Of a stretch of DNA of 26,909 bases, positions 8,473 to 23,816 are shown in pieces. The notes under the pieces are model-generated. The model worked only from the letters and a program-made list of their open reading frames with translations. It was not told the origin of the DNA and made no database searches. The stretch covers positions 1 through 26,909 of the IMG/VR virus record IMGVR_UViG_3300028844_004637; one strand, written 5' to 3'. Positions within the stretch are counted from its first letter, which is position 1; each line of letters opens with the position of its first letter. This DNA is from a virus. A program made the position numbers and the translations under genes.

Positions 8473-8501
8473 TTGACATTCTTTTAGAATCAGTTTATAT
8501 T
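8473..8501 (+). promoter_or_regulatory. TTGACATT-family promoter with TAGAATCAG spacer
   Basis: TTGACA (8473-8478), 17 bases, TATATT (8496-8501). The spacer contains TAGAATCAG with a GANTC site (GAATC, 8487-8491). An AT-only inverted repeat TTATATT/AATATAA (8495-8501 and 8510-8516) covers the -10 and start region. It drives the SleB-like gene. Confidence 0.85.
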
Positions 8502-8525
8502 AAAAAGATAATATAAAAACTAAGG

Positions 8526-9023
8526 ATGAGAGCAGTGAAAAATATATTATGTGTAGCGGCAATTGCCGCGTTGAGTGCAACCGTTTCTTCAGCCGCGTGT
8601 GGTGAAGAAGATCAAGTTCATGCGTTAGCAATGAATATGTATCATGAAGCGCGCGGAGAAGGATACGACGCAATGCAAATGGTGGGAGAGGTTACTCTTA
8701 ATCGAGTTGCTAATAAACACTTTCCAAATACCGTATGTGGTGTTGTATATCAAGCAAGAATGGATAGGAGAGGAAATCCTAAACGTCATCTTTGCCAATT
8801 CTCTTGGTATTGTGATGGTCGTTCTGATAAGCCTTATGATAAAAAATTGTGGTATCAAGCACACGAAATTGCTGCTGGTTTAATTGATAAAAGTATTAGT
8901 TTTATTGGTATATCAGCCACACACTATCATGCTTACCACGTTAACCCGTCGTGGGCAAAGAAATACGAAATGGTCGGAAGGTACGGCGGCCATGTTTTTT
9001 ACGATATGGGAAGTACCTTATAA
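8526..9023 (+). CDS. Secreted cell-wall hydrolase, SleB/CwlJ (Hydrolase_2) family
   Basis: A peptidoglycan hydrolase with an N-terminal signal peptide (NILCVAAIAALSATVSSAA) and a Hydrolase_2 domain: NMYHEARGE (with the expected catalytic Glu), VGEVTLNRVANKHFPNTVCGVVYQ, and CQFSWYCDG. Being exported by Sec, it could act without a holin, unlike the GH19 endolysin. The outer start is given; AAGG abuts that ATG directly, while the in-frame GTG at 8535 has AAGGA at a normal eight-base spacing and gives MKNILC..., so 8535 is the more likely true start. It has its own early-type promoter, odd for a lysis enzyme. A role in DNA entry, cell-wall remodelling or lysis timing cannot be told apart from sequence. 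Confidence 0.9.
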   Translation: MRAVKNILCVAAIAALSATVSSAACGEEDQVHALAMNMYHEARGEGYDAMQMVGEVTLNRVANKHFPNTVCGVVYQARMDRRGNPKRHLCQFSWYCDGRSDKPYDKKLWYQAHEIAAGLIDKSISFIGISATHYHAYHVNPSWAKKYEMVGRYGGHVFYDMGSTL

Positions 9024-9026
9024 ATA
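9019..9026 (+). promoter_or_regulatory. Possible late promoter octamer TATAAATA
   Basis: The exact octamer overlaps the TAA stop of the SleB gene. Expected initiation near 9032 would leave only about a dozen bases before the ATG at 9045 and remove part of its ribosome site, so it may be coincidental. Confidence 0.3.
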
Positions 9027-9044
9027 TAGGAAGGTGATAACGAT

Positions 9045-9236
9045 ATGCCGTTAAATGATTCTACTGAAGCTGAAACGTATAGAAGAATGGTTTTAGCACA
9101 AGCTGATGAGATTGCAATATTAAAACGTCAACTAACAGAAGAAATTAAAGAAAAGTATACGGCATATCGTAGAATTGCTGAACTTACAAACTCAACTCCT
9201 GAGTCGGTTAAAGAAAGCAGGGAATTATGGGAATAA
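9045..9236 (+). CDS. Small coiled-coil protein, 63 aa, unknown
   Basis: The gene has GGAAGGTG eight bases before its ATG. The protein is charged and helical throughout (heptad-like pattern in residues 10-45) with no cysteines or membrane segment. It overlaps the downstream DUF454 gene by ten bases, suggesting one operon. Function not recognised. Confidence 0.65.
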   Translation: MPLNDSTEAETYRRMVLAQADEIAILKRQLTEEIKEKYTAYRRIAELTNSTPESVKESRELWE

Positions 9237-9643
9237 GAAAAGCATTATGGTTTACTTTAGGAATACTATTATTAGGAGTGGCATATGCCGGTGTCATACT
9301 TCCTGGTATTCCTTGGAGTACACCTACGGTTCTCGCAGCAATATGTTTTGCGAAATCAAGTGAAAGAATGCATAAGTGGATTTATAGTCATCCAAGGTTT
9401 GGACCGTTTTTAATTGGGTGGCAGGAAAAAAGGATTTTTCCAACAAAAGCAAAATACCTTATGGTTATAACCATGTGTACATCCCTCTTAGTATTGTGGT
9501 TTACAACGGGTAATCTTAATGCCATTATTTGGTCAGGATCGTTTATGGTCCTTGTAGCTATATGGGGTTGGAGATATCCTGGTTCAGATGAAGAGCATAC
9601 TCGTCGAGTCAATGAAGGAAAAAGAATTGCATGGCTGAGCTAA
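9227..9643 (+). CDS. DUF454 (YbaN-family) inner-membrane protein
   Basis: 138 residues matching the YbaN/DUF454 pattern: a first membrane helix (about 5-24), the LPGIPWSTPTVLAAICFAKS block, SSERMHKWIYSHPRFGPFL, then K-M-V-I-T-M and two further helices (about 78-92 and 98-113). Bacterial members are small inner-membrane proteins of unknown function. It is host-like rather than a typical phage core gene and may have been acquired from the host. It overlaps both neighbours, in the order coiled-coil gene, DUF454, 51-aa gene. Confidence 0.85.
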   Translation: MGIRKALWFTLGILLLGVAYAGVILPGIPWSTPTVLAAICFAKSSERMHKWIYSHPRFGPFLIGWQEKRIFPTKAKYLMVITMCTSLLVLWFTTGNLNAIIWSGSFMVLVAIWGWRYPGSDEEHTRRVNEGKRIAWLS

Positions 9644-9786
9644 CCTTTGAGCCGGATTTTACTCCTGAAATGTGGAGAGAATACGAACTAAAAAGGGCAA
9701 AGCTAATTGCTGAAAACCCAGGATTTGATCCTGAAAAAGATTCTTTTATTATGCCAAAAAATAGTGAAAAAAAATCTAATTCATAA
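9631..9786 (+). CDS. Small unknown protein, 51 aa
   Basis: A short ORF overlaps the end of the DUF454 gene by 13 bases, with AAGGAA about ten bases upstream. The product is hydrophilic, with acidic and aromatic residues at its N-terminus and a Lys/Ser-rich tail. It fills the space exactly up to the next promoter. Unrecognised. Confidence 0.55.
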   Translation: MAELTFEPDFTPEMWREYELKRAKLIAENPGFDPEKDSFIMPKNSEKKSNS

Positions 9787-9796
9787 CATTTTTCTA

Positions 9797-9825
9797 TTGA
9801 CATTTGGCTTAGAATAGTATAGATT
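9797..9825 (+). promoter_or_regulatory. TTGACATT-family promoter
   Basis: TTGACA (9797-9802), 17 bases, TAGATT (9820-9825); TAGAAT in the spacer is followed by A, so this copy has no spacer GANTC. It drives the 126-aa gene at 9860. Confidence 0.82.
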
Positions 9826-9858
9826 GATTCTATAAGGTAAACAAAAAGGAATCAATCT
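9821..9858 (+). repeat. Perfect 10-bp inverted repeat from -10 box to ribosome-binding site
   Basis: AGATTGATTC (9821-9830) and GAATCAATCT (9849-9858) are exact reverse complements separated by 18 bases. The left arm overlaps the -10 and the predicted start; the right arm includes part of the AAAAAGGA ribosome site. Each arm contains a GANTC site. If transcription starts at about 9832 the left arm is mostly outside the RNA, so an operator is more likely than an RNA stem. Confidence 0.7.
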
Positions 9859-9859
9859 T

Positions 9860-10240
9860 ATGAAATACGCAATCTATCAAATCCGTCTCACAGATGCTCA
9901 AATTGACAGAATTAACGAAACTCAAAGCTTTGAGTCAGTTCCTGCCAAAAAAGCAAAGATTGACATGGAAATGGATTTCGCAGGACATAAGATCGGTGGA
10001 TTGGCATACGATGCTTTCGTAGTAAACAACTACTACACCCATGTGGCAAATATTGAAGCTGCTTCAGCAAATGAAGTATTTCATATCGGTAACATGGGAC
10101 CTGAAGAAAGTATTGAACGTTTGAGCCAAATGCATTCTATCTCTGTTGGCGATGTACTCGTTGACGAAGAAGGTCAATGTATTGTAGTTGCTCCAATCGG
10201 TTTTGTTGGCTTTTCGCATGACTGGCGTCTTGCGGCATAA
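9860..10240 (+). CDS. Conserved-looking phage protein, 126 aa, with MHS-x-SVGDV motif
   Basis: Begins MKYAIYQIRLT and ends in a compact beta-rich domain: EVFHIGNMGPEES, then MHSISVGDVLVDEEGQ and VVAPIGF. The MHS-SVGDV segment recurs in small phage and plasmid proteins and is reminiscent of the YodL-like fold, but I cannot assign a function. It has its own early promoter and its own terminator downstream, so it is a single-gene unit that is likely strongly expressed. Confidence 0.85.
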   Translation: MKYAIYQIRLTDAQIDRINETQSFESVPAKKAKIDMEMDFAGHKIGGLAYDAFVVNNYYTHVANIEAASANEVFHIGNMGPEESIERLSQMHSISVGDVLVDEEGQCIVVAPIGFVGFSHDWRLAA

Positions 10241-10293
10241 TAGGCAAATCCCAAGGCAGTATTGCCGCCTACCTATCGCTGAGTTAGACTCGG
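10241..10293 (+). other. Structured 3' region before terminator
   Basis: Directly after the stop, TAGGC (10241-10245) can pair with GCCTA (10267-10271), enclosing GGCA-GTAT-TGCC (10255-10266); a second small hairpin CTGAGT/ACTCGG (10279-10293) follows. The three structures with the terminator suggest a structured 3' UTR or processed small RNA. No tRNA cloverleaf fits. Confidence 0.35.
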
Positions 10294-10317
10294 ATAAACA
10301 ATGGGTGTCACAAAGAG

Positions 10318-10352
10318 GAGAGGGTAGTTTCGGCTATCCTCTCATTTTTTTT
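10318..10352 (+). terminator. Rho-independent terminator between convergent genes
   Basis: GAGAGGGTAG (10318-10327) pairs with CTATCCTCTC (10334-10343), ten pairs with one G-U, loop TTTCGG, followed by A and eight T (10345-10352). It ends plus-strand transcription just before the convergent lipoprotein gene, whose stop codon overlaps the end of the T-run. Confidence 0.9.
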
Positions 10353-10851
10353 ATAAAGTTCGTCTTCTTACGGATATCGCGGTACTTGCTTCAAACTTTT
10401 TGTAAGATACCATATCGTTTTGATTTCCACCAAGGATGATATAGTACTCTATATTGTTTTCTTCATAAGATGCTACGAAAAACCCAACGTGACCCTCCCA
10501 AGGTTCACCTCTTGGAAATACTACAATGTCACCGGGAAGAGGATTATCAGTTTCTTCTCCCCACTTTAAAAAGCTTCTGGCCATGTAAGGATTTTCTACA
10601 TAGAATTCAGAACCGATAATATTTTGAGAATGAAGAATTGCATTTACAAAAGCTGCACACCATTCCATGTAAGCGGGATTAACTTTAAGTAATTTTCTTA
10701 ATTCTCCATTGTCCTGGTTTTCATTCATGCCGACATATTTGTCTGCATATGATATGATATCACTTTCTCTAGATTGTTCTATCATATAATTTAAATCTGT
10801 ACACGCTTGTAGCAATACACACACAATAAATAATAATTTAAATCTCAACAT
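10351..10851 (-). CDS. Lipoprotein with CHAP/NlpC-P60-like peptidase domain (TIGR02594-like)
   Basis: The only minus-strand gene. Residues 1-17 are a lipoprotein signal (LLFIVCVLLQAC, lipidated Cys17). The mature part matches the CHAP-like TIGR02594 pattern: KYVGMNE, the catalytic Cys65 in EWCAAFVNA, PLPGDIVVFPRG, His121 in EGHVGFF and Asn143 in GGNQ as the third residue. Such domains cleave peptide bonds or the amide of peptidoglycan. A lipid anchor would hold it on the inner face of the outer membrane. The start has GAGGGT eight bases upstream. Opposite orientation suggests a moron-like addition, possibly acting on the envelope of infected cells; this role is inferred. Confidence 0.88.
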   Translation of the reverse strand: MLRFKLLFIVCVLLQACTDLNYMIEQSRESDIISYADKYVGMNENQDNGELRKLLKVNPAYMEWCAAFVNAILHSQNIIGSEFYVENPYMARSFLKWGEETDNPLPGDIVVFPRGEPWEGHVGFFVASYEENNIEYYIILGGNQNDMVSYKKFEASTAISVRRRTL

Positions 10852-10863
10852 TTAGGTACCCTC

Positions 10864-11082
10864 ATGTATACTGCACTTCTTATGATATGTTTAATGGATC
10901 AACCATCATCTAATGATAATTGTACAATACTTAGTAATGATAAAATATACAAAACAGAGCTAAAATGTATGGAAGCCGCCGCATATCTACTTAATTCTAA
11001 ATTTTTTCAAACAGTTTACGCAGATTACGAACCAAGAAAGTTAGAATGTTATTCTTGGATAGATAATAAGCCAACAACATAA
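10864..11082 (+). CDS. Small cysteine-containing protein, 72 aa, unknown
   Basis: Divergent from the lipoprotein gene with a 12-base gap. The N-terminus (MYTALLMICLM) is hydrophobic and short; four cysteines (9, 20, 35, 62) are spread through a polar sequence, which would suit a small exported disulfide protein, though no clear cleavage site is visible. AGG lies upstream of the ATG. Start codon and promoter are uncertain, as the intergenic space is very small. Confidence 0.55.
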   Translation: MYTALLMICLMDQPSSNDNCTILSNDKIYKTELKCMEAAAYLLNSKFFQTVYADYEPRKLECYSWIDNKPTT

Positions 11083-11095
11083 TATATTTATTTTG

Positions 11096-11124
11096 TTTAC
11101 ATTCTAAGTAAATTGTGATATATT
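11096..11124 (+). promoter_or_regulatory. Variant promoter TTTACATT, apparently for a leaderless mRNA
   Basis: TTTACA (11096-11101), 17 bases, TATATT (11119-11124). The ATG of the next gene is at 11131, where initiation is expected. The spacer lacks TAGAAT. This is the most divergent member of the series. Confidence 0.6.
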
Positions 11125-11130
11125 ATAATT

Positions 11131-11451
11131 ATGTTAGAATCATTTTTTATAGACGATACACCAGAAGAGCAACCCGCCGCCTGGGGTACTAAAAAAGAAC
11201 AGGAAATACGGCGTAGGATCTTACTGTCTGTAGCAGCTTACGCATACGAAGTAAAGAACGAGTCAATAATATCAGACGCTGAGTTTGATGAACAATGCAA
11301 ATTAGTAGATCTTACAGTGAGCACAGGTAATAGAAAAATAGATAATTTTTTTAAGAAGTACTTTGATGCGTCTACAGGACAATGGATACATAAGCACCCA
11401 GAGCTCCGAAAGGTAAAATGGATTTATGAAAAGTTTTATATAAAGAAATGA
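11131..11451 (+). CDS. Unknown phage protein, 106 aa, LigA-Ia-like segment
   Basis: No Shine-Dalgarno precedes the ATG and the -10 of the promoter ends six bases earlier, so the message may be leaderless. The sequence RILLSVAAYAYE-x4-SIISDAEFDE resembles the N-terminal Ia subdomain of NAD-dependent DNA ligases (which read roughly 'YY..d...isDaeYDeL'); TGQWIHKHPEL follows. The rest of a ligase is absent, so this is at most an isolated fold similarity, not a ligase. Basic C-terminus. Function unknown. Confidence 0.75.
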   Translation: MLESFFIDDTPEEQPAAWGTKKEQEIRRRILLSVAAYAYEVKNESIISDAEFDEQCKLVDLTVSTGNRKIDNFFKKYFDASTGQWIHKHPELRKVKWIYEKFYIKK

Positions 11452-11453
11452 TC

Positions 11454-11618
11454 ATGGAAGAGATAATTCTATTAATAATAATTTTAGTATTATTTGCACT
11501 TTTTGCAAAAGGCCTATTTACTGTTTTTATAGAGCACTTTTGGTTAGCTGCGCTGATGCTAATATGTTTCCTTCCTTTGCTGTTTCTTTGGGCACTTTTA
11601 AGAGGAATATTTAAATGA
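11454..11618 (+). CDS. Small hydrophobic protein, 54 aa, two transmembrane helices
   Basis: Starts three bases after the previous stop and overlaps the next gene by ATGA. Two helices are evident: about residues 4-21 (ILLIIILVLFALFAKGL) and 29-49 (FWLAALMLICFLPLLFLWALL), ending in a basic tail (RGIFK). This is the size of a class II-type holin, but it is not next to the endolysin and may be any small membrane protein. The ribosome site is weak, so expression probably depends on coupling. Confidence 0.6.
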   Translation: MEEIILLIIILVLFALFAKGLFTVFIEHFWLAALMLICFLPLLFLWALLRGIFK

Positions 11619-11911
11619 ATAAGTATTATGTAGTAACGGCGATATCACAACACCGCATGAGATATGTTATCCCTGTTGAAGATTTAAAAGATGAAAACGG
11701 AAACGTTAAACCTGAATGGGCTCTTGATTCTGTTATTATGCATGAAGTGGAAGAATTTTCACAAGAACATTTAGGAGAGACACTTATTGATGTTTTGGAA
11801 GAAAGTGAAGAAGAAGTACTTATTCGGTTTGACAAAGAAAATGCTTATCTAAGATCTTGGCCTAAAGATCAAAAGATTAAACACATTAGAGACTGGAGAT
11901 CTGAAAAATGA
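11615..11911 (+). CDS. Unknown acidic protein, 98 aa
   Basis: Start overlaps the stop of the membrane protein gene, with AGAGGAA seven bases upstream. The sequence begins MNKYYVVTAISQHRMRYVIPVEDL, a beta-rich segment, followed by an acidic region (VEEFSQEHLGETLIDVLEESEEEVL) and a charged C-terminus with two Trp. It overlaps the glutaredoxin start by four bases. Family not recognised. Confidence 0.75.
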   Translation: MNKYYVVTAISQHRMRYVIPVEDLKDENGNVKPEWALDSVIMHEVEEFSQEHLGETLIDVLEESEEEVLIRFDKENAYLRSWPKDQKIKHIRDWRSEK

Positions 11912-12162
11912 TTACGATATACGGAAAAGACGACTGTTATTGGTGCAAACAAGCGGTCAGTATGGCAAAAAGGCATTCTTTAGAATACACATATAAAAAT
12001 ACTACATATGAGACATATCGGACAGAAATGTTTGAACAAGTTCCTGATGCTAAAACAGTACCGCAAATTTTTTGGCATGAAAGATACATTGGTGGATATA
12101 ATCAATTTGCATCAGAAATTGAAAATACCTTAGGTGGGAACTTTGGACAGGAATTATTCTAA
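11908..12162 (+). CDS. grx: Glutaredoxin
   Basis: 84-residue thioredoxin-fold protein with the dithiol site C10-Y-W-C13, the cis-proline loop TVPQIF (T50-V51-P52) and the G62-G63-Y glutathione-binding turn. It is likely to return electrons to the C-terminal cysteines of the phage NrdA, as T4 NrdC does. Near-universal length for phage glutaredoxins. It overlaps the upstream gene (ATGA) and abuts the next gene with no gap. Confidence 0.93.
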   Translation: MITIYGKDDCYWCKQAVSMAKRHSLEYTYKNTTYETYRTEMFEQVPDAKTVPQIFWHERYIGGYNQFASEIENTLGGNFGQELF

Positions 12163-12390
12163 ATGGTTAAACCATCACCATACGAAGAATATTTAATTGA
12201 AATAATGCGTAAGCATGCTACTACTCTTACTGAAGCCCTTGACTTGGATTTTAGAAAGAACAGCATTGATGCTTCAGACATATTAAGCGTATGTGATTAC
12301 CTGGAAGAAAAGTTAACCGATTTAGATAAGGTTCAATATTATATGCTTATCTATACTGGCCAAAAACCAGATCTTGAACTTAAAAGATAA
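12163..12390 (+). CDS. Unknown protein, 75 aa
   Basis: Starts at the base after the glutaredoxin stop. It is mainly helical and acidic, with a SPYEEYLIEIMRKHATTLTEAL N-terminal half split by no obvious linker from DASDILSVCDYLEEKL. One cysteine. It is the last gene of the operon starting at 11131; the next promoter follows in nine bases. Function not recognised. Confidence 0.7.
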   Translation: MVKPSPYEEYLIEIMRKHATTLTEALDLDFRKNSIDASDILSVCDYLEEKLTDLDKVQYYMLIYTGQKPDLELKR

Positions 12391-12399
12391 AATTAACTA

Positions 12400-12428
12400 T
12401 TGACATTTGGTTTAGAATCAGTTATTAT
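12400..12428 (+). promoter_or_regulatory. TTGACATT-family promoter with TAGAATCAG spacer
   Basis: TTGACA (12400-12405), 17 bases, TATTAT (12423-12428). The GAATC in the spacer (12415-12419) lies three bases upstream of the -10. It drives the 12456 gene group. Confidence 0.88.
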
Positions 12429-12455
12429 GGTTATACAAATGAAAAGGAATATATT

Positions 12456-12698
12456 ATGACATACACAGTTGAACTTGATATCTCTTACGAAGCTAAACAT
12501 GAAGAAGTCCTGCAATTTGCAACTGAACATGGTTGCCGTGTAATGCTAAGGATTGAAGAAGGTCCTGCAGGAGGAAATCCTCTTTACACATTTGCATCTG
12601 AAAGTTTTGATATGATTCAAGAATTGACCGAACAAGTACTTGGTGCAGGTCACGGTTTTGATGAGGAAGAAATTAAAACTATGATAGTGGAGGTGTAA
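12456..12698 (+). CDS. Unknown small acidic protein, 80 aa
   Basis: First gene behind its promoter, with AAAAGGAA before ATG. The pattern MTYTVELDISYEAKHEEVLQF followed by ...GNPLYTFASES and a Gly-rich turn suggests a small alpha/beta fold, perhaps ACT/ferredoxin-like, but there is no motif for function. Its 3' end carries the GGAGG of the next gene. Confidence 0.75.
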   Translation: MTYTVELDISYEAKHEEVLQFATEHGCRVMLRIEEGPAGGNPLYTFASESFDMIQELTEQVLGAGHGFDEEEIKTMIVEV

Positions 12699-12701
12699 AA
12701 A

Positions 12702-13043
12702 TTGTCTATGCATATGATACGTGGAGTTCAAGTCCACGGCAATAGTAAAAAACGTAAAAACAAGAGTAAACGGCTGCTTGCCGCCGAGGCTGAATACGAG
12801 GCTTTTCTAGCCCGTGTGGGGTACACTGGCAAGAAGTCAGAACATCGTTATGAGCTACCCAATTATAATACAGGGCCTCGTATGACCTCTGATATCGTCG
12901 CTGGCAATGGAGTCGCGAAGGAACGTAAAGTATATACTGGTAATGAGATTGCTGGGATTGTAACCACACATAAATCTAATCTGATGCCTATTCGTAAAGA
13001 TAACAAACAGGCGGCTGTTGACGCTGCGTCGATGAGGAGATAG
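12702..13043 (+). CDS. Unknown basic phage protein, 113 aa, TTG start
   Basis: GGAGG lies eight bases before TTG 12702, so the non-ATG start is well supported; internal ATGs follow at 12708 and 12714 as alternatives. Residues 14-25 are very basic (KKRKNKSKR). The C-terminal half reads TSDIVAGNGVAKERKVYTGN and EIAGIVTTHKSNLMPIRKDN, ending in AASMRR, an arrangement that recurs in T4-like phages of marine bacteria as far as I remember, without known function. Base composition is a little more GC-rich than neighbours. Confidence 0.8.
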   Translation: MSMHMIRGVQVHGNSKKRKNKSKRLLAAEAEYEAFLARVGYTGKKSEHRYELPNYNTGPRMTSDIVAGNGVAKERKVYTGNEIAGIVTTHKSNLMPIRKDNKQAAVDAASMRR

Positions 13044-13044
13044 T

Positions 13045-13770: not shown

Positions 13771-14193
13771 ATGTGGTTTTACAATGGAAAAGAATTCACG
13801 TCTGAAGACATTGGTGAATATATTGGGTTTGTGTATCTTATCACAGACCAGGACAACGGAAAAAAGTACGTTGGCAAAAAGCTACTTAAGTCTAAACGGA
13901 AGCTTAAACCTCTCAAAGGAAAAACACGTCGCAGGACAAAGATCGTTGAGTCTGATTGGAAAACCTATTACGGTTCTTCCGAAGAAGTTAAGCAAATGGT
14001 TGAAGAAAAAGGAGCTGACAACTTCCACAGGGAAATATTACATCTTTGTTTTAAAAAAGGTGAACTTGGCTATCTTGAGCTTCGGGAGCAAATGCTCCGA
14101 GACGTATTATTGCGTGAAGATTACTATAACGGAATCGTTCAAGCAAAAATACACAGAAGCCATGTTAAAAGGTTGACATTCTTGATAGAATAG
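13771..14193 (+). CDS. GIY-YIG-like endonuclease-fold protein
   Basis: 140 residues. Near residues 17-31 the sequence GFVYLITDQDNGKKYVGKK matches the GIY/YIG strands (GFVY...KYVG). A basic loop (KLKPLKGKTRRRTK) follows, then SDWKTYYGSSEE; a conserved-looking Glu in LELREQML and Asn in DYYNG fit the later catalytic positions of the fold. It could be a free-standing homing nuclease or a small DNA-processing enzyme; there is no separate DNA-binding domain of the Seg type. GGGG lies six bases before ATG. Its last seven codons contain the next promoter's -35 and spacer. Confidence 0.75.
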   Translation: MWFYNGKEFTSEDIGEYIGFVYLITDQDNGKKYVGKKLLKSKRKLKPLKGKTRRRTKIVESDWKTYYGSSEEVKQMVEEKGADNFHREILHLCFKKGELGYLELREQMLRDVLLREDYYNGIVQAKIHRSHVKRLTFLIE

Positions 14194-14201
14194 TTTATAC
14201 T
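14173..14201 (+). promoter_or_regulatory. TTGACATT-family promoter, within the end of the preceding gene
   Basis: TTGACA (14173-14178), 17 bases, TATACT (14196-14201), with TAGAAT in the spacer followed by A, so no GANTC there; a GAATC occurs later in the leader (14226-14230). The -35 and spacer encode the last residues of the GIY-YIG-like protein. Confidence 0.84.
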
Positions 14202-14233
14202 AGATACATATAAAGAATTTATGGAGAATCAGT

Positions 14234-14461
14234 ATGATTATTAAACGCAAAAGTGTTATCACAGGAATTATTCGTTCAATGGACATTCCTGTTAATCCTG
14301 ATGATTACGCGGCCTGGGAAAAAGGTCTTGGTGGAATTGAAGAGTTAATGCCTTATATCAACAGCAAAGACTTTCAATTTATTTTATCAGGTATTACACC
14401 TGAGGAATGGGATGATGCATTCTCTGAAGAAATTTTAAATATTGTGTCGGATAATTTTTAA
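14234..14461 (+). CDS. Unknown protein, 75 aa, ITPEEW motif
   Basis: First gene behind its promoter. The pattern NPDDYAAWEKG then ELMPYIN, DFQFILSGITPEEWDDAF occurs in many phages in my memory as a short helical protein, often encoded in arrays of early genes; no function known to me. The TAA stop shares its last base with the next ATG (TAATG). Confidence 0.8.
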   Translation: MIIKRKSVITGIIRSMDIPVNPDDYAAWEKGLGGIEELMPYINSKDFQFILSGITPEEWDDAFSEEILNIVSDNF

Positions 14462-15108
14462 TGATCGTATTATTTAATGGTCCTCCTCGTTCAGGTAAAG
14501 ATGCTGCAGCCGACTACTTTAAAGCAAAAGGTTGGAAACATCTTTCGTTTAAATACCAATTATATAAAGAAACATGCAAATACTTTGGATGCGATTATGA
14601 ATGGTTTATGGAAAGATATGATGATCGTTCCGTTAAAGAACTTCCTCATATGGATCTTGGTCATATGTCTTGCCGTGAAGCAATGATATATGTTTCAGAA
14701 CAGGTGATTAAACCAAAAAAGGGATTAGACTTTTTTGGAAAACAAGTTGCAAACGAAATTGAAGATGATAAAGATTATTGTATCTCGGATGGCGGATTTA
14801 TTGATGAACTCGTTCCAGTTATAAATAGAATTGGTTCCGATAATTTCGTTTTGGTCCAACTTACTCGCGAAGGATGCGATTATTCTACAGACTCAAGACG
14901 CTATTTCGACGGAAACATTGTTCATCAATATGTAAATTCTCACGAAACACGTATTGAAAAGAAATATGTTTTACCTCGTAAATTCAATGTAAGAACATAT
15001 AGAATTCACAACAATGGATCTATCGGAGCTTTTCATGAATCATTAAAAGATATATATGAAAAGGAATACAATGAACAAGCACAAGCAAAAAGGAAGATCG
15101 AAGTCTAG
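14461..15108 (+). CDS. Deoxynucleoside monophosphate kinase-like P-loop protein
   Basis: 215 residues starting with a beta strand and a P-loop, GPPRSGKD (residues 7-14). AADYFKAKGW follows, then helical substrate-binding regions (CREAMIYVSEQVIKP, LDFFGKQVANEI), and ISDGGFIDEL, a Walker-B-like strand. This organisation resembles T4 gp1, which phosphorylates dNMPs, including dTMP from ThyA. It would link ThyA and RNR to the dNTP pool. Substrate specificity cannot be seen. A TATAAATA inside it (14820-14827) is probably coincidental. Confidence 0.78.
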   Translation: MIVLFNGPPRSGKDAAADYFKAKGWKHLSFKYQLYKETCKYFGCDYEWFMERYDDRSVKELPHMDLGHMSCREAMIYVSEQVIKPKKGLDFFGKQVANEIEDDKDYCISDGGFIDELVPVINRIGSDNFVLVQLTREGCDYSTDSRRYFDGNIVHQYVNSHETRIEKKYVLPRKFNVRTYRIHNNGSIGAFHESLKDIYEKEYNEQAQAKRKIEV

Positions 15109-15292
15109 AGTTTTTTGTGAAAACCCTTATGATTTAGAAACTTATTTTGAGTCTTTATCTATAGCATCAACCCACGATAAAGAACTCATATTTGTAGATA
15201 AATTTATAGCATTGTTAAGATTAGATCCACAAGCTGAAGTTTCTGATATAAGCTATAAAATACTGAGGGATTTAAATCTTATAAAATTATAA
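15071..15292 (+). CDS. Unknown protein, 73 aa
   Basis: Overlaps the kinase gene by 38 bases. ATG 15071 has AAAAGGA five bases upstream, preferable to the ATG at 15056. Basic N-terminus (NKHKQKGRSKSR), then a helical region with ENPYDLETYFESL and a hydrophobic C-terminal half. Function not recognised. Confidence 0.65.
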   Translation: MNKHKQKGRSKSRVFCENPYDLETYFESLSIASTHDKELIFVDKFIALLRLDPQAEVSDISYKILRDLNLIKL

Positions 15293-16525: not shown

Positions 16526-16859
16526 CATCATAAAGTTTCCTAAAACAAAATTAGGTGCACCACCGCAATCACCAGAAGAACTTGCTGAAAAATTAGAAGA
16601 ATATCGGCGAGGATTTTCGGATGATGTTGCGGAACAATTATGGAATATAGTAATAATAGAAATGGTCAGATCTGGTTGCAGGTTCGAAGAACAACCTGAT
16701 AAGTACTATCCATCTATAATACTTTTACTTGAATCTATTAAATCATTACACCTTCAAGCTCATGGTATTGACCATCCGCTTCAAGAGTTGGCAAAAGATT
16801 TTATAGAAGAGGAAGAATTAGATAAAGAATCAGTTGACATTTCAGAGATTATAGAATAA
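16518..16859 (+). CDS. Unknown protein, 113 aa
   Basis: Overlaps the glycosyltransferase end by eight bases. It begins DNIIKFPKTKLG, then a charged helical region; ESIKSLHLQAHGIDHPLQELAKDFI near the C-terminus is the most conserved-looking part and recurs in T4-like phages without known function. Its final codons form the next promoter's -35, spacer and part of the -10. Confidence 0.75.
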   Translation: MDNIIKFPKTKLGAPPQSPEELAEKLEEYRRGFSDDVAEQLWNIVIIEMVRSGCRFEEQPDKYYPSIILLLESIKSLHLQAHGIDHPLQELAKDFIEEEELDKESVDISEIIE

Positions 16860-16862
16860 AAT
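16834..16862 (+). promoter_or_regulatory. TTGACATT-family promoter inside the end of the preceding gene
   Basis: TTGACA (16834-16839), 17 bases, TAAAAT (16857-16862). The TAA stop of the upstream gene overlaps the -10. A GANTC site lies just upstream of the -35 (16828-16832). ATAAAA/TTTTAT (16856-16861 and 16865-16870) form a short inverted repeat over the -10. Confidence 0.78.
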
Positions 16863-16897: not shown

Positions 16898-17758
16898 ATG
16901 GCTATTTTGATAGATTTTAATCAAGTGATGCTAGCATCCTTGTTCGCAGGGATTGGAAATCACACAAACATTGACGTAGACGAAAATTTGTTGCGTCACA
17001 TGTTCCTTAACTCAATTCGAGCAAATCGTAAAAAGTTCCACAAGGACTTTGGCGAGATCGTAATTTGCGCTGATGGCAAAAATACATGGCGTCGTGAAGC
17101 GTATCCTTATTATAAAGGTAATCGTAAAAAATCACGTGATGCGTCTGAATTGGATTGGAACCACCTATTTAATATAATTGGAAAAATTCGTACAGAACTT
17201 CACGAAGTATTTCCATATAAAGTAATTCACATAGAGCACTGTGAAGCTGATGATATTATTGGCACAGTAATCCACAAGTATGGTACAGAACTAAATATAG
17301 GTTCAGAACCATTTCTAATCTTGTCTGGTGACAAAGACTTTATTCAATTACATCGTTATGCTAATGTAAGTCAATTTGATCCGGTTCGTAAAAAATGGAT
17401 TAAAAATTCCGATCCTGATAAATACTTGCGTGAGCATATTCTAAAAGGAGACGCTGGTGATGGCGTTCCAAATATTCTTTCAGCCGATAACTGTCTTGCC
17501 GTTGGAGAAAGACAAAGACCAATGACGCAAAAACGAATATTTGAATTTACCGAAGATCCTTCTTCTATGGATACCCAAACACAAATTCGTTTTGAAAGAA
17601 ATAAACTTATGATTGACCTCGAGCTTGTACCTCAAAAATATAAAGATATTATTATTCAAGAATACGATGCAGAAAAGAACGTTGACCGTTCTAACTTATT
17701 TAACTTTTTTGTTGAAAAGAGGTTAAGAAACTTAATTACTGATATACAGGACTTTTAA
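16898..17758 (+). CDS. rnh: 5'-3' exonuclease / flap nuclease, T4 RNase H-like
   Basis: 286 residues of the FEN/PIN-like family; it would remove RNA primers from lagging-strand fragments made with the gp61-like primase. Metal-binding acidic residues: D6 (LIDFNQ), D59 (CADGKNTWRR), E116, D118 and D119 (CEADDIIG), D145 and D147 (LSGDKDFIQL), D185 and D188 (KGDAGDGVPNIL, the helix-hairpin-helix segment). The length fits T4 Rnh (305). It heads an operon with its own promoter. Confidence 0.93.
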   Translation: MAILIDFNQVMLASLFAGIGNHTNIDVDENLLRHMFLNSIRANRKKFHKDFGEIVICADGKNTWRREAYPYYKGNRKKSRDASELDWNHLFNIIGKIRTELHEVFPYKVIHIEHCEADDIIGTVIHKYGTELNIGSEPFLILSGDKDFIQLHRYANVSQFDPVRKKWIKNSDPDKYLREHILKGDAGDGVPNILSADNCLAVGERQRPMTQKRIFEFTEDPSSMDTQTQIRFERNKLMIDLELVPQKYKDIIIQEYDAEKNVDRSNLFNFFVEKRLRNLITDIQDF

Positions 17759-18383: not shown

Positions 18384-18412
18384 TTGACATTCTCATAGAA
18401 TCAGTATATTGT
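18384..18412 (+). promoter_or_regulatory. TTGACATT-family promoter with TAGAATCAG spacer
   Basis: TTGACA (18384-18389), 17 bases, TATTGT (18407-18412). Spacer GAATC at 18398-18402. It drives the HAD nucleotidase gene. Confidence 0.86.
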
Positions 18413-18437: not shown

Positions 18438-19019
18438 ATGAAAATAAATGAAAAACTAATTCTCGTAGACTGCGATGGCGTATTACTCGACTGGCAGTAC
18501 TCATTCTATAAATGGATGGCAGCCCGCGATCATCATCCAATCGTAGACGGCGAATATGACATGGGTAAAACATTTAACATGTCATACGATCAAGCCAAAA
18601 TGATGTGTGAATACTTCAATTGTTCAGCAGCTATCGGTTGGTTAACTCCATTCAGAGATGCCGTAAAATACGTACGTAAGTTACACGAGGATCATGGCTT
18701 TGTATTTCATTGCATCACATCATTATCAACAGATAAGTACGCAGGAAAACTGCGTAAAAAGAACCTTGAAGCTATTTTTGGTAAAAAAGTTTTTGAGGAA
18801 GTTATCTGTCTTGAATGTGGTGGTGATAAATACGACGCATTGTTACCTTATGCAAATACAGGCTGTTTCTGGGTTGAAGATAAACCTGAGAACGCGGTCG
18901 TTGGATCAGATCTTGGTCTAAACTCATTATTAATCGAACATGAACATAATAAAGATTTTTCTTATACCGATGTAACAAATGTTAAAAATTGGAAAGAAAT
19001 ATATGAGCTGATTGTATAA
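18438..19019 (+). CDS. HAD-family nucleotidase-like phosphatase
   Basis: 193 residues. Catalytic motif I is D11-C-D13-G-V (LVDCDGVLLDW), motif II is the Ser/Thr in FHCITSLS, and motif IV is VEDKPENAVVG, typical of 5'(3')-deoxyribonucleotidase-like phage HAD proteins. A cap region lies between motif I and II (residues 25-75). The reaction is probably removal of phosphate from nucleotides, perhaps shaping the dNMP pool or salvaging bases. Exact substrate unknown. It is a single-gene unit with its own promoter; a late octamer overlaps its 3' end. Confidence 0.82.
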   Translation: MKINEKLILVDCDGVLLDWQYSFYKWMAARDHHPIVDGEYDMGKTFNMSYDQAKMMCEYFNCSAAIGWLTPFRDAVKYVRKLHEDHGFVFHCITSLSTDKYAGKLRKKNLEAIFGKKVFEEVICLECGGDKYDALLPYANTGCFWVEDKPENAVVGSDLGLNSLLIEHEHNKDFSYTDVTNVKNWKEIYELIV

Positions 19020-19022: not shown

Positions 19023-19050
19023 CAGTTATCAGCAGGTCATACATTTATGG

Positions 19051-19084
19051 ATAGGCGGTCTGCGAGGTCGCCTATATTTTTTTT
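19051..19084 (+). terminator. Strong rho-independent terminator
   Basis: ATAGGCGGTCT (19051-19061) pairs with AGGTCGCCTAT (19065-19075): eleven pairs with two G-U, a GCG loop, then A and eight T (19077-19084). It ends the early HAD-gene transcript; the next gene's ribosome site begins within two bases. Confidence 0.9.
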
Positions 19085-19097
19085 AAAGGAGACTTAC

Positions 19098-19331: not shown

Positions 19332-19357
19332 CTCCGTTAGGGGTCTAAGGAGGTTTC

Positions 19358-20110
19358 ATGGCACAAAAACAGCGTAGACTATCTCGTAAGGAAAGACTCA
19401 AACAACAAAGAGAAATGGATCACATGGTAGATATCTTAAATTCAAAGTTTTCGATGCGAAAGATATTACCACTAACACGATCCCAGGTAAAGTTGTTTGA
19501 GTCTTATCGTAAGGGAAAAAATCTAGCGGCCATCGGAACAGCAGGTACAGGTAAAACAATGTGCGCCACTTATTTGGCGTTAAATGATGTACTACAGAAA
19601 GGGGAGTATGAAAAGGTCGTCATAATTAGATCTGCAGTTCAGACAAGAGAACAAGGTTTTATGCCAGGTTCTCAGGCACAGAAAGAGGCAGTGTTTGAAG
19701 CACCATACACTGACATTACCAATGATCTATTTGGAAGAAAAGATGCATATCAAGTTTTAAAAACAGAAGGTATGATTGAGTTCAAAACATCATCATTTGT
19801 AAGAGGACTCACATTTGATAACGCAGTCATTATTGTAGATGAATGCCAATCAATGACATACCATGAACTTGATAGTATTATCACGAGAGTCGGAGAATCA
19901 TCTAAGATTATTTTCTGCGGAGATACAAAACAAGATGATCTTCAACAATCTCGAAATAGAGCAGATGTTACAGGTTTGCACGACTTTTTAAGAGTATTAA
20001 AGAACATACCGTCTTTTGCAGTAATAGACTTTACAGTAAATGATATTGTGCGTTCAGGTTTAGTAAAAGAATATATAATGGCGAAAGAACAACTATTAGA
20101 GGTGGCCTAA
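19358..20110 (+). CDS. phoH: PhoH-like ATPase
   Basis: 250 residues of the PhoH family, common in marine phages. Walker A GTAGTGKT (60-67), Walker B VIIVDEC (D161-E162), sensor segment KIIFCGDTKQDD and VNDIVRSGLVKEYI near the end. A basic helix at 1-22 is an extension. The ribosome site is near perfect (AAGGAGGT). PhoH-like proteins are ATPases with suggested roles in RNA handling or phosphate stress; not decided here. The PAAR gene begins at the very next base. Confidence 0.93.
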   Translation: MAQKQRRLSRKERLKQQREMDHMVDILNSKFSMRKILPLTRSQVKLFESYRKGKNLAAIGTAGTGKTMCATYLALNDVLQKGEYEKVVIIRSAVQTREQGFMPGSQAQKEAVFEAPYTDITNDLFGRKDAYQVLKTEGMIEFKTSSFVRGLTFDNAVIIVDECQSMTYHELDSIITRVGESSKIIFCGDTKQDDLQQSRNRADVTGLHDFLRVLKNIPSFAVIDFTVNDIVRSGLVKEYIMAKEQLLEVA

Positions 20111-20410
20111 ATGCCAGAAGCAGCAAGAGTTGGAGATGATGTTGACACAGGACATGGATGCGCAGCTACTACAACTCTTGCTGCTGCGGACCATAAGGTA
20201 AATATTGAAGGCGAAAACGCACTTGTGGTTGGAGATGAAACAGTCTCTCACGCTTTTCCACCAGATCCTCCTTGTGATCCTCATACTGCGCCTATAAACG
20301 AAGGGTCAAGTAAAGTAACAATTGGCGGTGTTGCAGCCGCAAGAAAAAACGATGGTTGTGACGCTGGCATAATTTCATCAGGATCAAGTAAAGTAACAAT
20401 AGGCGGATAA
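20111..20410 (+). CDS. PAAR-repeat baseplate spike-tip protein
   Basis: 99 residues with the PAAR pattern: ARVGDDVDTGHGCA at the N-terminus, then HKVNIEGENALVVGDE, and two repeats GSSKVTIGGVAAAR and GSSKVTIGG. His/Cys-rich (HGC, HAFPPDPPCDPH, DGC) for the metal ion at the cone tip. In T4, gp5.4 of this family sharpens the spike that pierces the outer membrane. It is odd that it sits between two replication/metabolism genes with no gap to phoH, since it should be needed late. Confidence 0.88.
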   Translation: MPEAARVGDDVDTGHGCAATTTLAAADHKVNIEGENALVVGDETVSHAFPPDPPCDPHTAPINEGSSKVTIGGVAAARKNDGCDAGIISSGSSKVTIGG

Positions 20411-20419
20411 TTTTATATT

Positions 20420-21091
20420 ATGTTTAATCATGTAGAGCATGGCGTAGTGCTCCCAAAAATCTCACGTAAAGATACTAAAAGTGGACGTAGATATTTTACA
20501 CCAGAAGGCAAAGCATATCCTTCTATTACAACTGTATTATCTATTTTAAGTAAAGAAGGTATTATTGCCTGGCGCAAAAGAGTTGGTGAAGAAGAGGCTA
20601 ATCGTATTTCTCGACAAGCCGCAACTCGAGGTACCGCAGTTCATAAACTCGCGGAAGATTATCTTGATAATGTAGAGGATTGGAGTAAAGGCGTAATGCC
20701 TGCCAATCTCGCTTCTTTTAATGATTTAAAAAATATCTTAGATGAACGTTTGGATAATATATGGTTTCAAGAAGAATTCTTATATTCTGATAGACTAAAA
20801 TGCGCAGGACAGGTTGACTGCATTGCTGAGTTTGACGGCGAGCTATCTATCGTTGATTTTAAGACATCTCGTAAACCAAAGAAAGAAGAATGGATTACAA
20901 ACTACTTTATTCAGGCGTCTTTTTATGCAGCTGCGTTTTATGAAAGAACTGGCGTACCTATTAAGCAAGGTGTAATACTTATTACCGTAGACGGTTCAGA
21001 ACCTCAGGTATTTAAAATACCAACATACGAATACTTACCTCACTTTTTATCAGTCAGAAAAAAGTACCGATTACTTAATGAAAAAGATTGA
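20420..21091 (+). CDS. PD-(D/E)XK exonuclease, Cas4/MGME1-like
   Basis: 223 residues with the RecB-family nuclease pattern: TRGTAVHKLAEDY (H75), E119, D133 in GQVDCIAEF, D146 and K148 in IVDFKTSRK (motif III), and Q165-x3-Y169 in IQASFYAAA. No Cas4 Fe-S cysteine cluster is visible, so it is closer to MGME1-like phage exonucleases common in T4-like cyanophages. It is likely to degrade or trim DNA ends in replication or recombination. Its TGA stop is inside the next promoter's -35. Confidence 0.88.
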   Translation: MFNHVEHGVVLPKISRKDTKSGRRYFTPEGKAYPSITTVLSILSKEGIIAWRKRVGEEEANRISRQAATRGTAVHKLAEDYLDNVEDWSKGVMPANLASFNDLKNILDERLDNIWFQEEFLYSDRLKCAGQVDCIAEFDGELSIVDFKTSRKPKKEEWITNYFIQASFYAAAFYERTGVPIKQGVILITVDGSEPQVFKIPTYEYLPHFLSVRKKYRLLNEKD

Positions 21092-21116
21092 CATTTGATA
21101 TAGAATCAGATAGAAT
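21088..21116 (+). promoter_or_regulatory. TTGACATT-family promoter with TAGAATCAG spacer
   Basis: TTGACA (21088-21093), 17 bases, TAGAAT (21111-21116); spacer GAATC at 21103-21107. The -35 includes the exonuclease stop (21089-21091). In the leader, TAGTA (21127-21131) can pair with TACTA (21143-21147), holding the AAGGAA ribosome site in the loop. Confidence 0.88.
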
Positions 21117-21146
21117 ATATATATATTAGTAAAAAGGAACGGTACT

Positions 21147-21710
21147 ATGAACATCTTTATTTTATCAAAAGATCCTGTCACTGCTGCCCAGTTGCAGTGT
21201 GATAAGCATGTTGTTAAAATGATTGTAGAGTCAGCACAAATGTTATCTACTGCACATCGTATGCTAGACGGCTACGTGGAAAAAAGACTTAGTAAATCCG
21301 GCAAGCGTATGATTAATTACTGGGTACATAAAGATCCTAGTAAAGAAGAACAGTTATACAAAGCAGTTCACCATAATCATCCTTGCACCGTATGGACTAT
21401 GGAATCAAACGCCAATTATGAATGGCACTATAAACATTTTATTGCGCTGTGTCAAGAGTATCAATTTCGTTATGATAAAATTCATGCTACACAAACTAAA
21501 CTGCAAGAAGTTTTGAAACGTGCACCATCCAATATTCCATGGACTAATTTATATACACAATTTAAATTAGCTATGAAAAACGAACCGCAATGTATCCATC
21601 CTGATGATCCAATTAGATCATATCAAGAATATTATCAAACTAAGCAAGACCGCTTTAAAATGGTTTGGTCTAAACGTCCTATTCCTGAATGGTTTGAGGT
21701 CGCGGCTTGA
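21147..21710 (+). CDS. Conserved phage/bacterial protein of unknown function, 187 aa
   Basis: The pattern is distinctive: MNIFILSKDPVTAAQLQCDKHVVKMIVESAQMLSTAH, then HHNHPCTVWTMESNANYEWHY, RYDKIHAT, and a C-terminal SYQEYYQTKQDRFKMVWSKR-PIPEWF. I recall this family across T4-like phages and some bacteria, with His/Cys/Asp residues (D19, H21, H96, H98, C100) well placed for a metal or catalytic site, but I know no demonstrated function. It is first in its transcription unit, with an overlapping hexapeptide-repeat gene downstream. Confidence 0.85.
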   Translation: MNIFILSKDPVTAAQLQCDKHVVKMIVESAQMLSTAHRMLDGYVEKRLSKSGKRMINYWVHKDPSKEEQLYKAVHHNHPCTVWTMESNANYEWHYKHFIALCQEYQFRYDKIHATQTKLQEVLKRAPSNIPWTNLYTQFKLAMKNEPQCIHPDDPIRSYQEYYQTKQDRFKMVWSKRPIPEWFEVAA

Positions 21711-22243
21711 CTAAAGAATTCTTACACGATTTTAAAGACGGAAACGGATTAGTACTTTCCCATCACCATAAAAATGGAGGCGGGATTGTTGCGAATAGCG
21801 CACACGTAGATGATAGTTGTATCATTGCTCCAACTGCGGTGGTAGGTGGAAATGCAATGGTAGTTGAAAATTGCAAGATACTTGATAAAGTAAGAGTATT
21901 AGGAAACGCTCATATATCAGGAAAAGTAACTCTTGAAGATAATATAGAAATAAATGGAACGGCAGAATTAAAATATGATACTGTGCTATTTGGTGATGCA
22001 AAAGTTACAATTACACCAAAAGTAGTTTTAGGATTTGACCATCCTGTGATAATTACTGACAGTCATATTTTTCTTGGGTGCCACTGTTTTGACATGGAGC
22101 AATGGGATAAAGCTGCTCCTATCATAAAAGTAAATGGCTATCCAACAAAGACGGCGAATAACATTCATCGTATAGTTAGTTTAGTTGCCGATATTCATTT
22201 TAATCTTTTTATCAAGGAAGACGATGAGATACCTAATCATTGA
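21707..22243 (+). CDS. Hexapeptide-repeat (left-handed beta-helix) protein, TTG start
   Basis: TTG 21707 overlaps the preceding TGA (TTGA) and has GAGGT seven bases upstream. Residues about 25-105 show imperfect hexapeptide repeats ([LIV]-G-x4 type): IVANSA HVDDSC IIAPTA VVGGNA MVVENC KILDKV RVLGNA HISGKV TLEDNI EINGTA. This is the fold of acyltransferases and gamma-carbonic anhydrases. The C-terminal part (DMEQWDKAAPIIK...) is not recognised. No CoA-binding or anhydrase histidine trio is clear; an HHHKNGGG segment precedes the helix. It may be a metabolic or surface-modifying enzyme. Confidence 0.82.
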   Translation: MTKEFLHDFKDGNGLVLSHHHKNGGGIVANSAHVDDSCIIAPTAVVGGNAMVVENCKILDKVRVLGNAHISGKVTLEDNIEINGTAELKYDTVLFGDAKVTITPKVVLGFDHPVIITDSHIFLGCHCFDMEQWDKAAPIIKVNGYPTKTANNIHRIVSLVADIHFNLFIKEDDEIPNH

Positions 22244-22523
22244 AGAAGACCTCGGTTTTTTTCTGGGAGTAGTTAATAGTTACGGAATATGGGCTAAGAA
22301 TGATATTTTTGGCCTTCCAAAGGCGTATAGCTTTGCCTCTAAAAAATTGGCTAAAAGATTTATAACAGAAGTTATAGGTTCCGAGATAAGCGATTATAAA
22401 ATAGTGGCAATAAATTCCGAAGATAAGTATATTCATGCGGTTGATCTCATTAAAAGCGGATACGGTAATCATACACATTTAATGTTAGATGCAATACCAA
22501 TGTTAAACGAAACCGTTCATTAA
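22224..22523 (+). CDS. Unknown protein, 99 aa
   Basis: Overlaps the hexapeptide gene by 20 bases; ATG 22224 has AAGGAA four bases upstream, preferable to an upstream ATG at 22185 inside that gene. RYLIIEEDLGFFLGVVNSYGIWAKN then KAYSFASKKLAKRFITEVIG: alpha/beta with a basic helix. Not recognised. A promoter follows eight bases after its stop. Confidence 0.72.
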   Translation: MRYLIIEEDLGFFLGVVNSYGIWAKNDIFGLPKAYSFASKKLAKRFITEVIGSEISDYKIVAINSEDKYIHAVDLIKSGYGNHTHLMLDAIPMLNETVH

Positions 22524-22530
22524 TTTCTTA

Positions 22531-22559
22531 TTGACATTTCGTTTAGAATCAGTTATTAT
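22531..22559 (+). promoter_or_regulatory. TTGACATT-family promoter with TAGAATCAG spacer
   Basis: TTGACA (22531-22536), 17 bases, TATTAT (22554-22559); spacer GAATC at 22546-22550. The first 16 bases are identical to those of the promoter at 23001. Confidence 0.88.
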
Positions 22560-22584
22560 AGTTCTATAAATGGAAGGAACTATA
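22557..22584 (+). repeat. 8-bp inverted repeat from -10 to ribosome-binding site
   Basis: TATAGTTC (22557-22564) and GAACTATA (22577-22584) are exact reverse complements. As at 9821-9858, the left arm starts in the -10 and the right arm lies at the AAGGAA ribosome site. Confidence 0.65.
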
Positions 22585-22585
22585 C

Positions 22586-22774
22586 ATGATTGACTATATG
22601 GTATTCGCAGAACGGCTTCGTAACTTAGCTCGTCGTTGTGACACATTCGGTAAAGACCGTCAAGATATTCTTTGGGAGATTATTGCAATCGCTGAAGACT
22701 ACGAAGAAAAAGTAGAACGTCTTGAGATGGAACAAATTATTCAGATGCAACGTGATCTTGTTGAAGCATCATGA
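22586..22774 (+). CDS. Small helical protein, 62 aa
   Basis: GGAAGGAA precedes the ATG. The product is almost wholly helical and charged (VFAERLRNLARRC... EIIAIAEDYEEKVERLEMEQIIQ), a likely dimeric coiled coil. It overlaps the zinc-protein start by four bases. Function unknown. Confidence 0.75.
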   Translation: MIDYMVFAERLRNLARRCDTFGKDRQDILWEIIAIAEDYEEKVERLEMEQIIQMQRDLVEAS

Positions 22775-22974
22775 TATTCCCAACGTATGTTATCCAAACA
22801 AAAAACCATTGGCTTGTTGGTACACAATGGGCATATGGTAAAGGAACAGTCACAATGCATGACGAAGGGTTTAGTTGTACCTGTAAAAAGAAACCTCGTA
22901 CGGCGTGTAGTCATATCAAGAACGTAAAGCTAAGGTTATACGGAACTTTTGATGAACATTATAATTACTCATAA
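22771..22974 (+). CDS. Small SWIM-type zinc-finger-like protein, 67 aa
   Basis: The C-terminal half FSCTCKKKPRTACSHIKNVKL has the C-x-C-x(n)-C-x-H spacing of a SWIM zinc finger, with an N-terminal beta hairpin (YVIQTKNHWLVGTQWAYGKGTVTM). SWIM modules bind DNA or protein and usually sit in larger proteins; here the module is almost alone. It could be a small regulator of host proteins or DNA. Overlaps its upstream gene (ATGA). Confidence 0.75.
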   Translation: MIFPTYVIQTKNHWLVGTQWAYGKGTVTMHDEGFSCTCKKKPRTACSHIKNVKLRLYGTFDEHYNYS

Positions 22975-23000
22975 TTAATTTTTTATTTTCATTTTAACTA

Positions 23001-23029
23001 TTGACATTTCGTTTAGAATAGGATATATT
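23001..23029 (+). promoter_or_regulatory. TTGACATT-family promoter
   Basis: TTGACA (23001-23006), 17 bases, TATATT (23024-23029). TAGAAT in the spacer is followed by AGG, so no GANTC there; one lies in the leader (23052-23056). TATATTA-T-TAATATA (23024-23038) is a perfect palindrome over the -10. Confidence 0.86.
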
Positions 23030-23058
23030 ATTAATATAACAAATGAAAAGGAATCACA

Positions 23059-23385
23059 ATGGAAAATCAAACTGCAAAATTTTGGACAGAAACTCCTCTT
23101 GACAATGTTGCTTCTTTAGTCGCAACTTTTCGTGGTTACGCTGCCCAGGAGGCTGATCTTGCTGATCTGTATAATTCAGACGCAGATGATTTTCATAAAG
23201 CAATTGTTCTTTTTCGTCAGTCGGACTCTGAAGGTCTTTCACAATACGTTTCAGAAATGGATACTCCTGCTCGTGAAGACTTGGTTGAAGCTTTTTGGTT
23301 TGACTGTGGTAACGATTTCGTTGAAAATGTTCTTGGTTTTTCTGAAAAACCAACAATTCTTGGTTTTTCAATCCGCAACGTTTAA
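23059..23385 (+). CDS. Unknown acidic protein, 108 aa
   Basis: AAAAGGAA precedes ATG. Acidic and helical, with many Asp/Glu (EADLADLYNSDADDF, SEMDTPAREDLVEAFWFDCG), no membrane segment. Strongly acidic small early proteins are sometimes DNA mimics that inhibit host proteins, but nothing here proves that. First of a two-gene unit. Confidence 0.78.
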   Translation: MENQTAKFWTETPLDNVASLVATFRGYAAQEADLADLYNSDADDFHKAIVLFRQSDSEGLSQYVSEMDTPAREDLVEAFWFDCGNDFVENVLGFSEKPTILGFSIRNV

Positions 23386-23406
23386 TAGAATATAAGGAAA
23401 AATATT

Positions 23407-23781
23407 ATGGGTACTTCAGCAAACATCGGCATTTACAATCCAAAAAATGACTCTGTAATCGCAAGCTATTGTCACTATGATGGCTATGTAGATGGAGTTG
23501 GTAAAACTCTCGTAAAATCTTATAACTCACAATACGATGCTGAAATCATAGCAAAAGGTGGATACCTTTCAAGTCTTTCAGATGATTACCTCGAGTCAAA
23601 AATAAACTCGGTAAATTCTGACGCTCCTATTGAATATGAAAACATCAAGCACTTTTTGAAACAATCTTTTAATGATACTGGTGCTGAGTATGCTTATGTA
23701 TGGGATGGCAACACATGGTTTGTAGCTACAGAAATCATGGCATTTGAAGAAGTTGAAATTAATTTGAAAAAAGTTGCATAA
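23407..23781 (+). CDS. Conserved-style phage protein, 124 aa
   Basis: MGTSANIGIYNPKND then CHYDGYVDGVGKTL is a pattern ('...cHwDGYp..vG..L') that recurs in small phage proteins of unknown function, as I remember. The C-terminus has YAYVWDGNTWFVATEI, beta-rich. AAGGAA eight bases before ATG. It ends seven bases before the DUF932 promoter. Confidence 0.78.
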   Translation: MGTSANIGIYNPKNDSVIASYCHYDGYVDGVGKTLVKSYNSQYDAEIIAKGGYLSSLSDDYLESKINSVNSDAPIEYENIKHFLKQSFNDTGAEYAYVWDGNTWFVATEIMAFEEVEINLKKVA

Positions 23782-23787
23782 TAACTA

Positions 23788-23816
23788 TTGACATTCTCTT
23801 TAGAATCAGATAATAT
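23788..23816 (+). promoter_or_regulatory. TTGACATT-family promoter with TAGAATCAG spacer
   Basis: TTGACA (23788-23793), 17 bases, TAATAT (23811-23816); spacer GAATC at 23803-23807. In the leader CATATC (23822-23827) can pair with GATATG (23844-23849), which includes the start codon of the DUF932 gene. Confidence 0.87.

Follow-up and report, generated by a model that had tools for sequence, protein, structure and literature searches.

The viral record IMGVR_UViG_3300028844_004637 from IMG/VR, taken here in full as the window, is 26,909 bases long and has a GC content of 36%. It carries T4-like genes for primase, thymidylate synthase, ribonucleotide reductase, PhoH, and RNaseH, as well as a GapR gene (PF10073, E value of 5e-31), and it contains a family of promoters, half of which place the pentamer GANTC at a fixed position in the spacer. 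The sequence that marks the family, TTGACATT, occurs 12 times on the plus strand (at 2750, 2794, 8473, 9797, 12400, 14173, 16834, 18384, 21088, 22531, 23001, and 23788). Exactly 17 bases after every one of these copies stands a -10-like hexamer that matches TATAAT at 4 to 5 of 6 positions, and the promoters have the sigma-70 form (TTGACA, 17 bases, and a TATAAT-like hexamer); the sole minus-strand copy (26838) has no -10. We infer that these are early promoters. In six of the 12, the spacer reads TAGAATCAG, and GAATC begins 14 or 15 bases past the first T of TTGACA, that is, 4 or 3 bases before the -10. The window holds 76 GANTC sites in total (2.8/kb), from which about 0.1 would be expected at these spacer registers in the 12 promoters, compared to the 6 observed. 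An initial annotation of this DNA had reported the 12 promoters and their exact spacing, the six GAATC spacers, roughly 70 GANTC sites with a placement far beyond chance, and the GapR homologue, and all of this held up on recounting. Spacers at 9797, 14173, and 23001 read TAGAATAG and have no GANTC, nor is there a spacer GANTC at 2750, 2794, or 16834. However, the promoter at 9797 is a seventh with the pentamer, as GATTC begins at 9826, immediately past its -10.

In many Alphaproteobacteria, CcrM methylates GANTC and thereby times the cell cycle, and GcrA is a sigma-70 cofactor at promoters with methylated GANTC near the -10. The initial annotation had proposed that the window promoters sense this host system and had called for a genome-wide collection of TTGACATT promoters. 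We gathered related loci by their PhoH, NrdA, and RNaseH proteins, so promoters were not a selection criterion, and obtained 324 nonredundant promoters of the form TTGACA-N17-TANNNT, including 205 of the TTGACATT type. GANTC in these 205 concentrates at offsets 14/15 (in the spacer; S) and 29/30 (just past the -10; D), with smaller counts farther downstream, in the leader. The GANTC-bearing genomes (1.10 Mb) hold 135 nonredundant promoters, among which S sites occur in 45 (1.2 expected) and D sites in 30 (1.6 expected), confirming the enrichment both in the spacer and downstream. Both sites occur together in only 2 of the 135 and neither in 62, so that a promoter usually bears one or the other (odds ratio of 0.10; Fisher P = 3e-4, only indicative because the promoters share ancestry and such P values overstate independence). 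Column-shuffled spacers or leaders gave at most 11 sites at offset 15, where 25 were observed, and at most 7 at offset 14, where 20 were observed, and the seven other palindromes of the GANTC form occurred 0 to 2 times per register in this clade. None of the 91 promoters with a one-mismatch -35 in the GANTC-bearing genomes has GANTC; chance probably accounts for most of these.

The promoter sites also differ from other GANTCs in their composition. Of 78 sites, 56 are GAATC, 21 are GATTC, and 1 is GACTC, compared to roughly equal frequencies of the four forms genome-wide, and 75 fit YGAKTCK on one strand, as do 32% of all genomic GANTCs. The literature gives YGAKTCK as the motif of promoters activated by GcrA (PMC7987155). 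The motif lies on the bottom strand in S sites and on the top strand in most D sites, so that its 5' end points toward the -10 in both; by our inference from this mirror layout, a flexible, sigma-bound cofactor would fit better than a single fixed operator.

Orthologous genes exchange the S and D positions yet keep one site. In the family of the 80-amino-acid (aa) protein encoded at 12456, six members have S and five have D, and the site is missing only in a GANTC-less subclade. All 10 GANTC-clade DUF932 promoters listed have S, and all eight promoters of a 129-aa family have D, one of them with S as well. The element is not universal, as replication genes (RNaseH and primase) have the same promoters without it: 1 of 17 RNaseH promoters has a GANTC, an incidental GACTC, and primase promoters never have one at the registers. 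In a 75- to 82-aa family (14234 to 14461 in the window), GAATC is common in the leader (14226 in the window) at varying distances past the start site and not at the two registers. We looked for the motif in unrelated phages and rejected a wider distribution, given that 118 of 119 pattern matches fall within this clade and the remaining one (L055) is chance-like. Recent copying of the promoters as dispersed repeats was likewise rejected, with sequence upstream of the -35 barely more alike than background; the promoter-plus-leader cassette is similar within one genome.

RNaseH trees place the GANTC phages as the background within which a supported clade without GANTC is nested (L189, L181, L292, L305, L307, and L317, among others). 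This clade, taken with L182 and L326, keeps TTGACATT promoters with GANTC at the registers in 0 of 55, and other lineages that keep them have 0 of 10 and 0 of 5. GANTC is likewise missing from the small groups L182/L326 and L190/L197, which the tree does not order relative to the nested clade, and, at the registers, from a further set (G287, G288, G024, L173, L177, L179, and L185). The more distant phage Melnitz, a T4-like marine phage of OM43 bacteria (Methylophilales), has TTGACATT-N17 promoters like those of the window and differs in having GANTC at either register in 0 of 10. Genome-wide GANTC density is similar with and without the element (3.01/kb and 2.94/kb, respectively), so the loss is specific to promoters.

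On the basis of sequence comparison, the GANTC element is real and selected. Its fixed, one-site placement near the -10, together with its loss in relatives, suggests that these phages may switch genes on via the host system that reads methylation, and we lean toward use of host GcrA and CcrM at methylated GANTC as the best explanation. Under this explanation, TTGACATT-N17-TATATT would form strong sigma-70 promoters for the host RNA polymerase, a subset of which bear one GAATC or GATTC within YGAKTCK, placed either immediately past the -10 or 3 to 4 bases ahead of it. Methylation of the site would come from host CcrM, and sigma-70-bound host GcrA would read the methylated site by the -10 and raise the opening of the promoter; the RNaseH and primase promoters, without the element, would fire independently. 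If this is the case, it would represent an epigenetic input to phage gene expression, and promoter sequence could help predict the host group of uncultured phages; the related lineages without the element make the idea directly testable. An unlikely extension is a methylation timer, whereby virion DNA methylated in the previous host would make the GANTC promoters responsive to GcrA at entry, and the hemi- or unmethylated daughters produced by phage replication would lose the boost, so that genes would switch from early to late with no phage regulator involved; the clade would have dropped the element where its hosts lack CcrM and GcrA.

The window would be a fragment of a T4-like phage that infects an alphaproteobacterium, probably a Rhodobacterales species, an assignment drawn from one gene: in the matched portion, the window GapR is 47 to 70% identical to GapR proteins of bacteria, mostly from Rhodobacteraceae, and all nine tested genomes with the nearest GapR have GcrA and a RAMA-domain (CcrM-type) protein. 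We rejected a phage-encoded methylase or GcrA, as no match to N6/N4-methylase (PF01555) or GcrA (PF07750) was found in 42 phage records; the search for a phage ccrM, proposed in the initial annotation, thus came back negative. GapR presence was also rejected as a proxy for the host, as it follows the element only loosely, with exceptions both ways.

Among known systems, the GcrA/CcrM-activated promoters of Caulobacter (of the mipZ, podJ, and ftsN type) resemble the window family in their sigma-70 form, GANTC near the -10, YGAKTCK, and, for the window phage, candidate hosts with gcrA and ccrM. They differ in that the window family is phage borne, with two strict registers, a perfect -35, and many copies per genome. 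The middle promoters of T4, which depend on MotA and AsiA, are likewise a repeated T4-like promoter family in which the core elements are joined by a further motif. However, the MotA box takes the place of the -35, whereas all promoters here have a perfect TTGACA as the -35, with the further motif in the spacer or past the -10. Phage phiCbK encodes a GcrA homologue. Caulobacter transcription start sites that have GANTC between the -35 and -10 fall into one temporal class (PMC4287350), and mutation of GANTC lowered the activity of several GcrA-dependent promoters by 60 to 80% (PMC3667746) and crippled several in another study (PMC3885167). The literature searched describes no family of phage promoters centered on the methylation site of CcrM.

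Several observations weigh against use of GcrA and CcrM, in addition to the shared ancestry of the promoters. Phage use of host CtrA is established (lytic deferment; PMC9437464) and is similar in that phage promoters are proposed to read a host cell-cycle regulator, although regulator and site differ; the survey of isolated alphaproteobacterial phages in that study saw no GcrA-site skew. GcrA of B. subvibrioides showed no extended motif preference (PMC7987155). A search of 249 genomes of Rhodobacteraceae, the candidate host group, for TTGACA-N9-GANTC-N3-TANNNT gave 0 matches (3 for a reversed-pattern control); it covered one exact register with a perfect -35. The promoter family was not found in Cr30, phiM9, or phiM12. 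Furthermore, G001 and G002 have the element without GapR, and G287 bears GapR while its TTGACA promoters and those of its kin G288 have no GANTC (0 of 5 and 0 of 6, respectively), which counts against a simple host rule. What stands of the original proposal is a selected GANTC that matches the GcrA motif, as seen in the registers, the one-site rule, the ortholog swap, YGAKTCK, the loss, and GapR; as to host, methylation, and dependence on GcrA and CcrM, the proposal reaches past these data.

The main rival, raised as a phage operator in the initial annotation and now weakened, is that [AC]GAATC[AG] serves as an operator whose regulator, encoded by the phage or otherwise by the host, is blind to methylation; a phage protein would bind TAGAATCA. 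Repressors classically bind at the S and D positions, between the -35 and -10 and between the -10 and the start, so that an operator there may shut the promoters off later in infection. Conservation also extends beyond GANTC, with TAGAATCAG in 34 of 45 spacers and TTGATTCTA in 16 of 30 downstream sites, and in one group without GANTC, a different palindrome covers the -35 of the orthologous promoter. Nevertheless, an arbitrary regulator would be unlikely to use a core that matches GANTC and YGAKTCK exactly, and the site is found at two positions and in either orientation. A 78-aa protein is encoded at every one of the 25 loci that have GANTC promoters. Three GANTC-less lineages lack it, which speaks for this rival, but other GANTC-less lineages keep it; searches of PHROGs, PDB folds, and INPHARED returned no match, and its predicted fold had no significant match. 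We rejected it as the reader of the site. The operator explanation as a whole is rather unlikely.

CcrM methylation could instead act without GcrA, with N6-methyladenine in the spacer or start region altering melting or blocking a repressor and the promoters responding directly to replication and methylation state. GANTC would then be kept whatever the reader, and both positions lie at the melted region or beside it. We consider this improbable, as the match is to the GcrA-activation motif and not to GANTC at large, which points to a reader with a flank preference. Even less credible is that the sequence belongs to the core promoter itself, through RNA polymerase contacts with the spacer, and that GANTC is incidental. 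In spacers without the site, AGAATA or AAATA does often stand at about this place, but the downstream alternative, the mutual exclusion, and the strand flip misfit a contact at one register, and related lineages keep strong TTGACATT promoters without GANTC.

Table 1. Promoters of the window, with the 78-aa protein and GapR genes
Feature	Positions	Strand	Context
Tandem TTGACATT promoters (2750, 2794), without GANTC	2750..2822	+	Before primase gene 2855-3874
Promoter, GAATC 8487-8491 in spacer	8473..8501	+	Before SleB-type cell-wall hydrolase gene 8526-9023
Promoter, TAGAATAG spacer, GATTC 9826-9830 directly past -10	9797..9830	+	Before gene 9860-10240
Promoter, GAATC 12415-12419	12400..12428	+	Before 80-aa gene 12456-12698; orthologs have exactly one site, spacer or downstream
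TTGACATT promoter, TAGAATAG, without GANTC at either register	14173..14201	+	Before gene 14234-14461; leader GAATC at 14226
78-aa protein, basic tail and predicted three-helix domain	15056..15292	+	Possible alternative reader of the site
TTGACATT promoter without GANTC, overlaps end of upstream gene	16834..16862	+	Before RNaseH gene 16898-17758
Promoter, GAATC 18398-18402	18384..18412	+	Before weakly NT5C-like nucleotidase gene 18438-19019
Promoter, GAATC 21103-21107	21088..21116	+	Before gene 21147-21710 (weak pyrimidine dimer glycosylase match)
Promoter, GAATC 22546-22550	22531..22559	+	Before 62-aa gene 22586-22774
TTGACATT promoter, TAGAATAGG, without GANTC	23001..23029	+	Before gene 23059-23385; site present in some orthologs
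Promoter, GAATC 23803-23807	23788..23816	+	Before DUF932 gene 23847-24809
GapR homologue (PF10073)	25770..26090	+	Closest cellular relatives in Rhodobacteraceae

The palindrome over the -35 in GANTC-less relatives (L176:2340, L132:3806, L305:12067, L312:12031, and L317:12064, among others) is an inverted repeat, AAAAGGGG / CCCCTTTT; it belongs to the promoter of the nucleotidase gene, where the window has GAATC, and looks like a different operator. Other GANTC-less loci (L449 to L458 and L436 to L438, from G004, G005, and G018) encode serine hydroxymethyltransferase, peroxiredoxin, several radical-SAM-like proteins, and a different NrdB, with a best match of 63% to Cronobacter jumbo phage GAP32, none of which were found in the GANTC-clade set compared. 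Matches of the hydroxymethyltransferase, peroxiredoxin, and NrdB genes scatter over many groups and give no verdict on the host of the GANTC-less clade. Finally, in Pelagibacter phage HTVC008M (L428 to L435), GANTC occurs at roughly one-tenth of the frequency expected from base composition (ratio of 0.10); Pelagibacter is reported to methylate GANTC, and the window clade has no such depletion.

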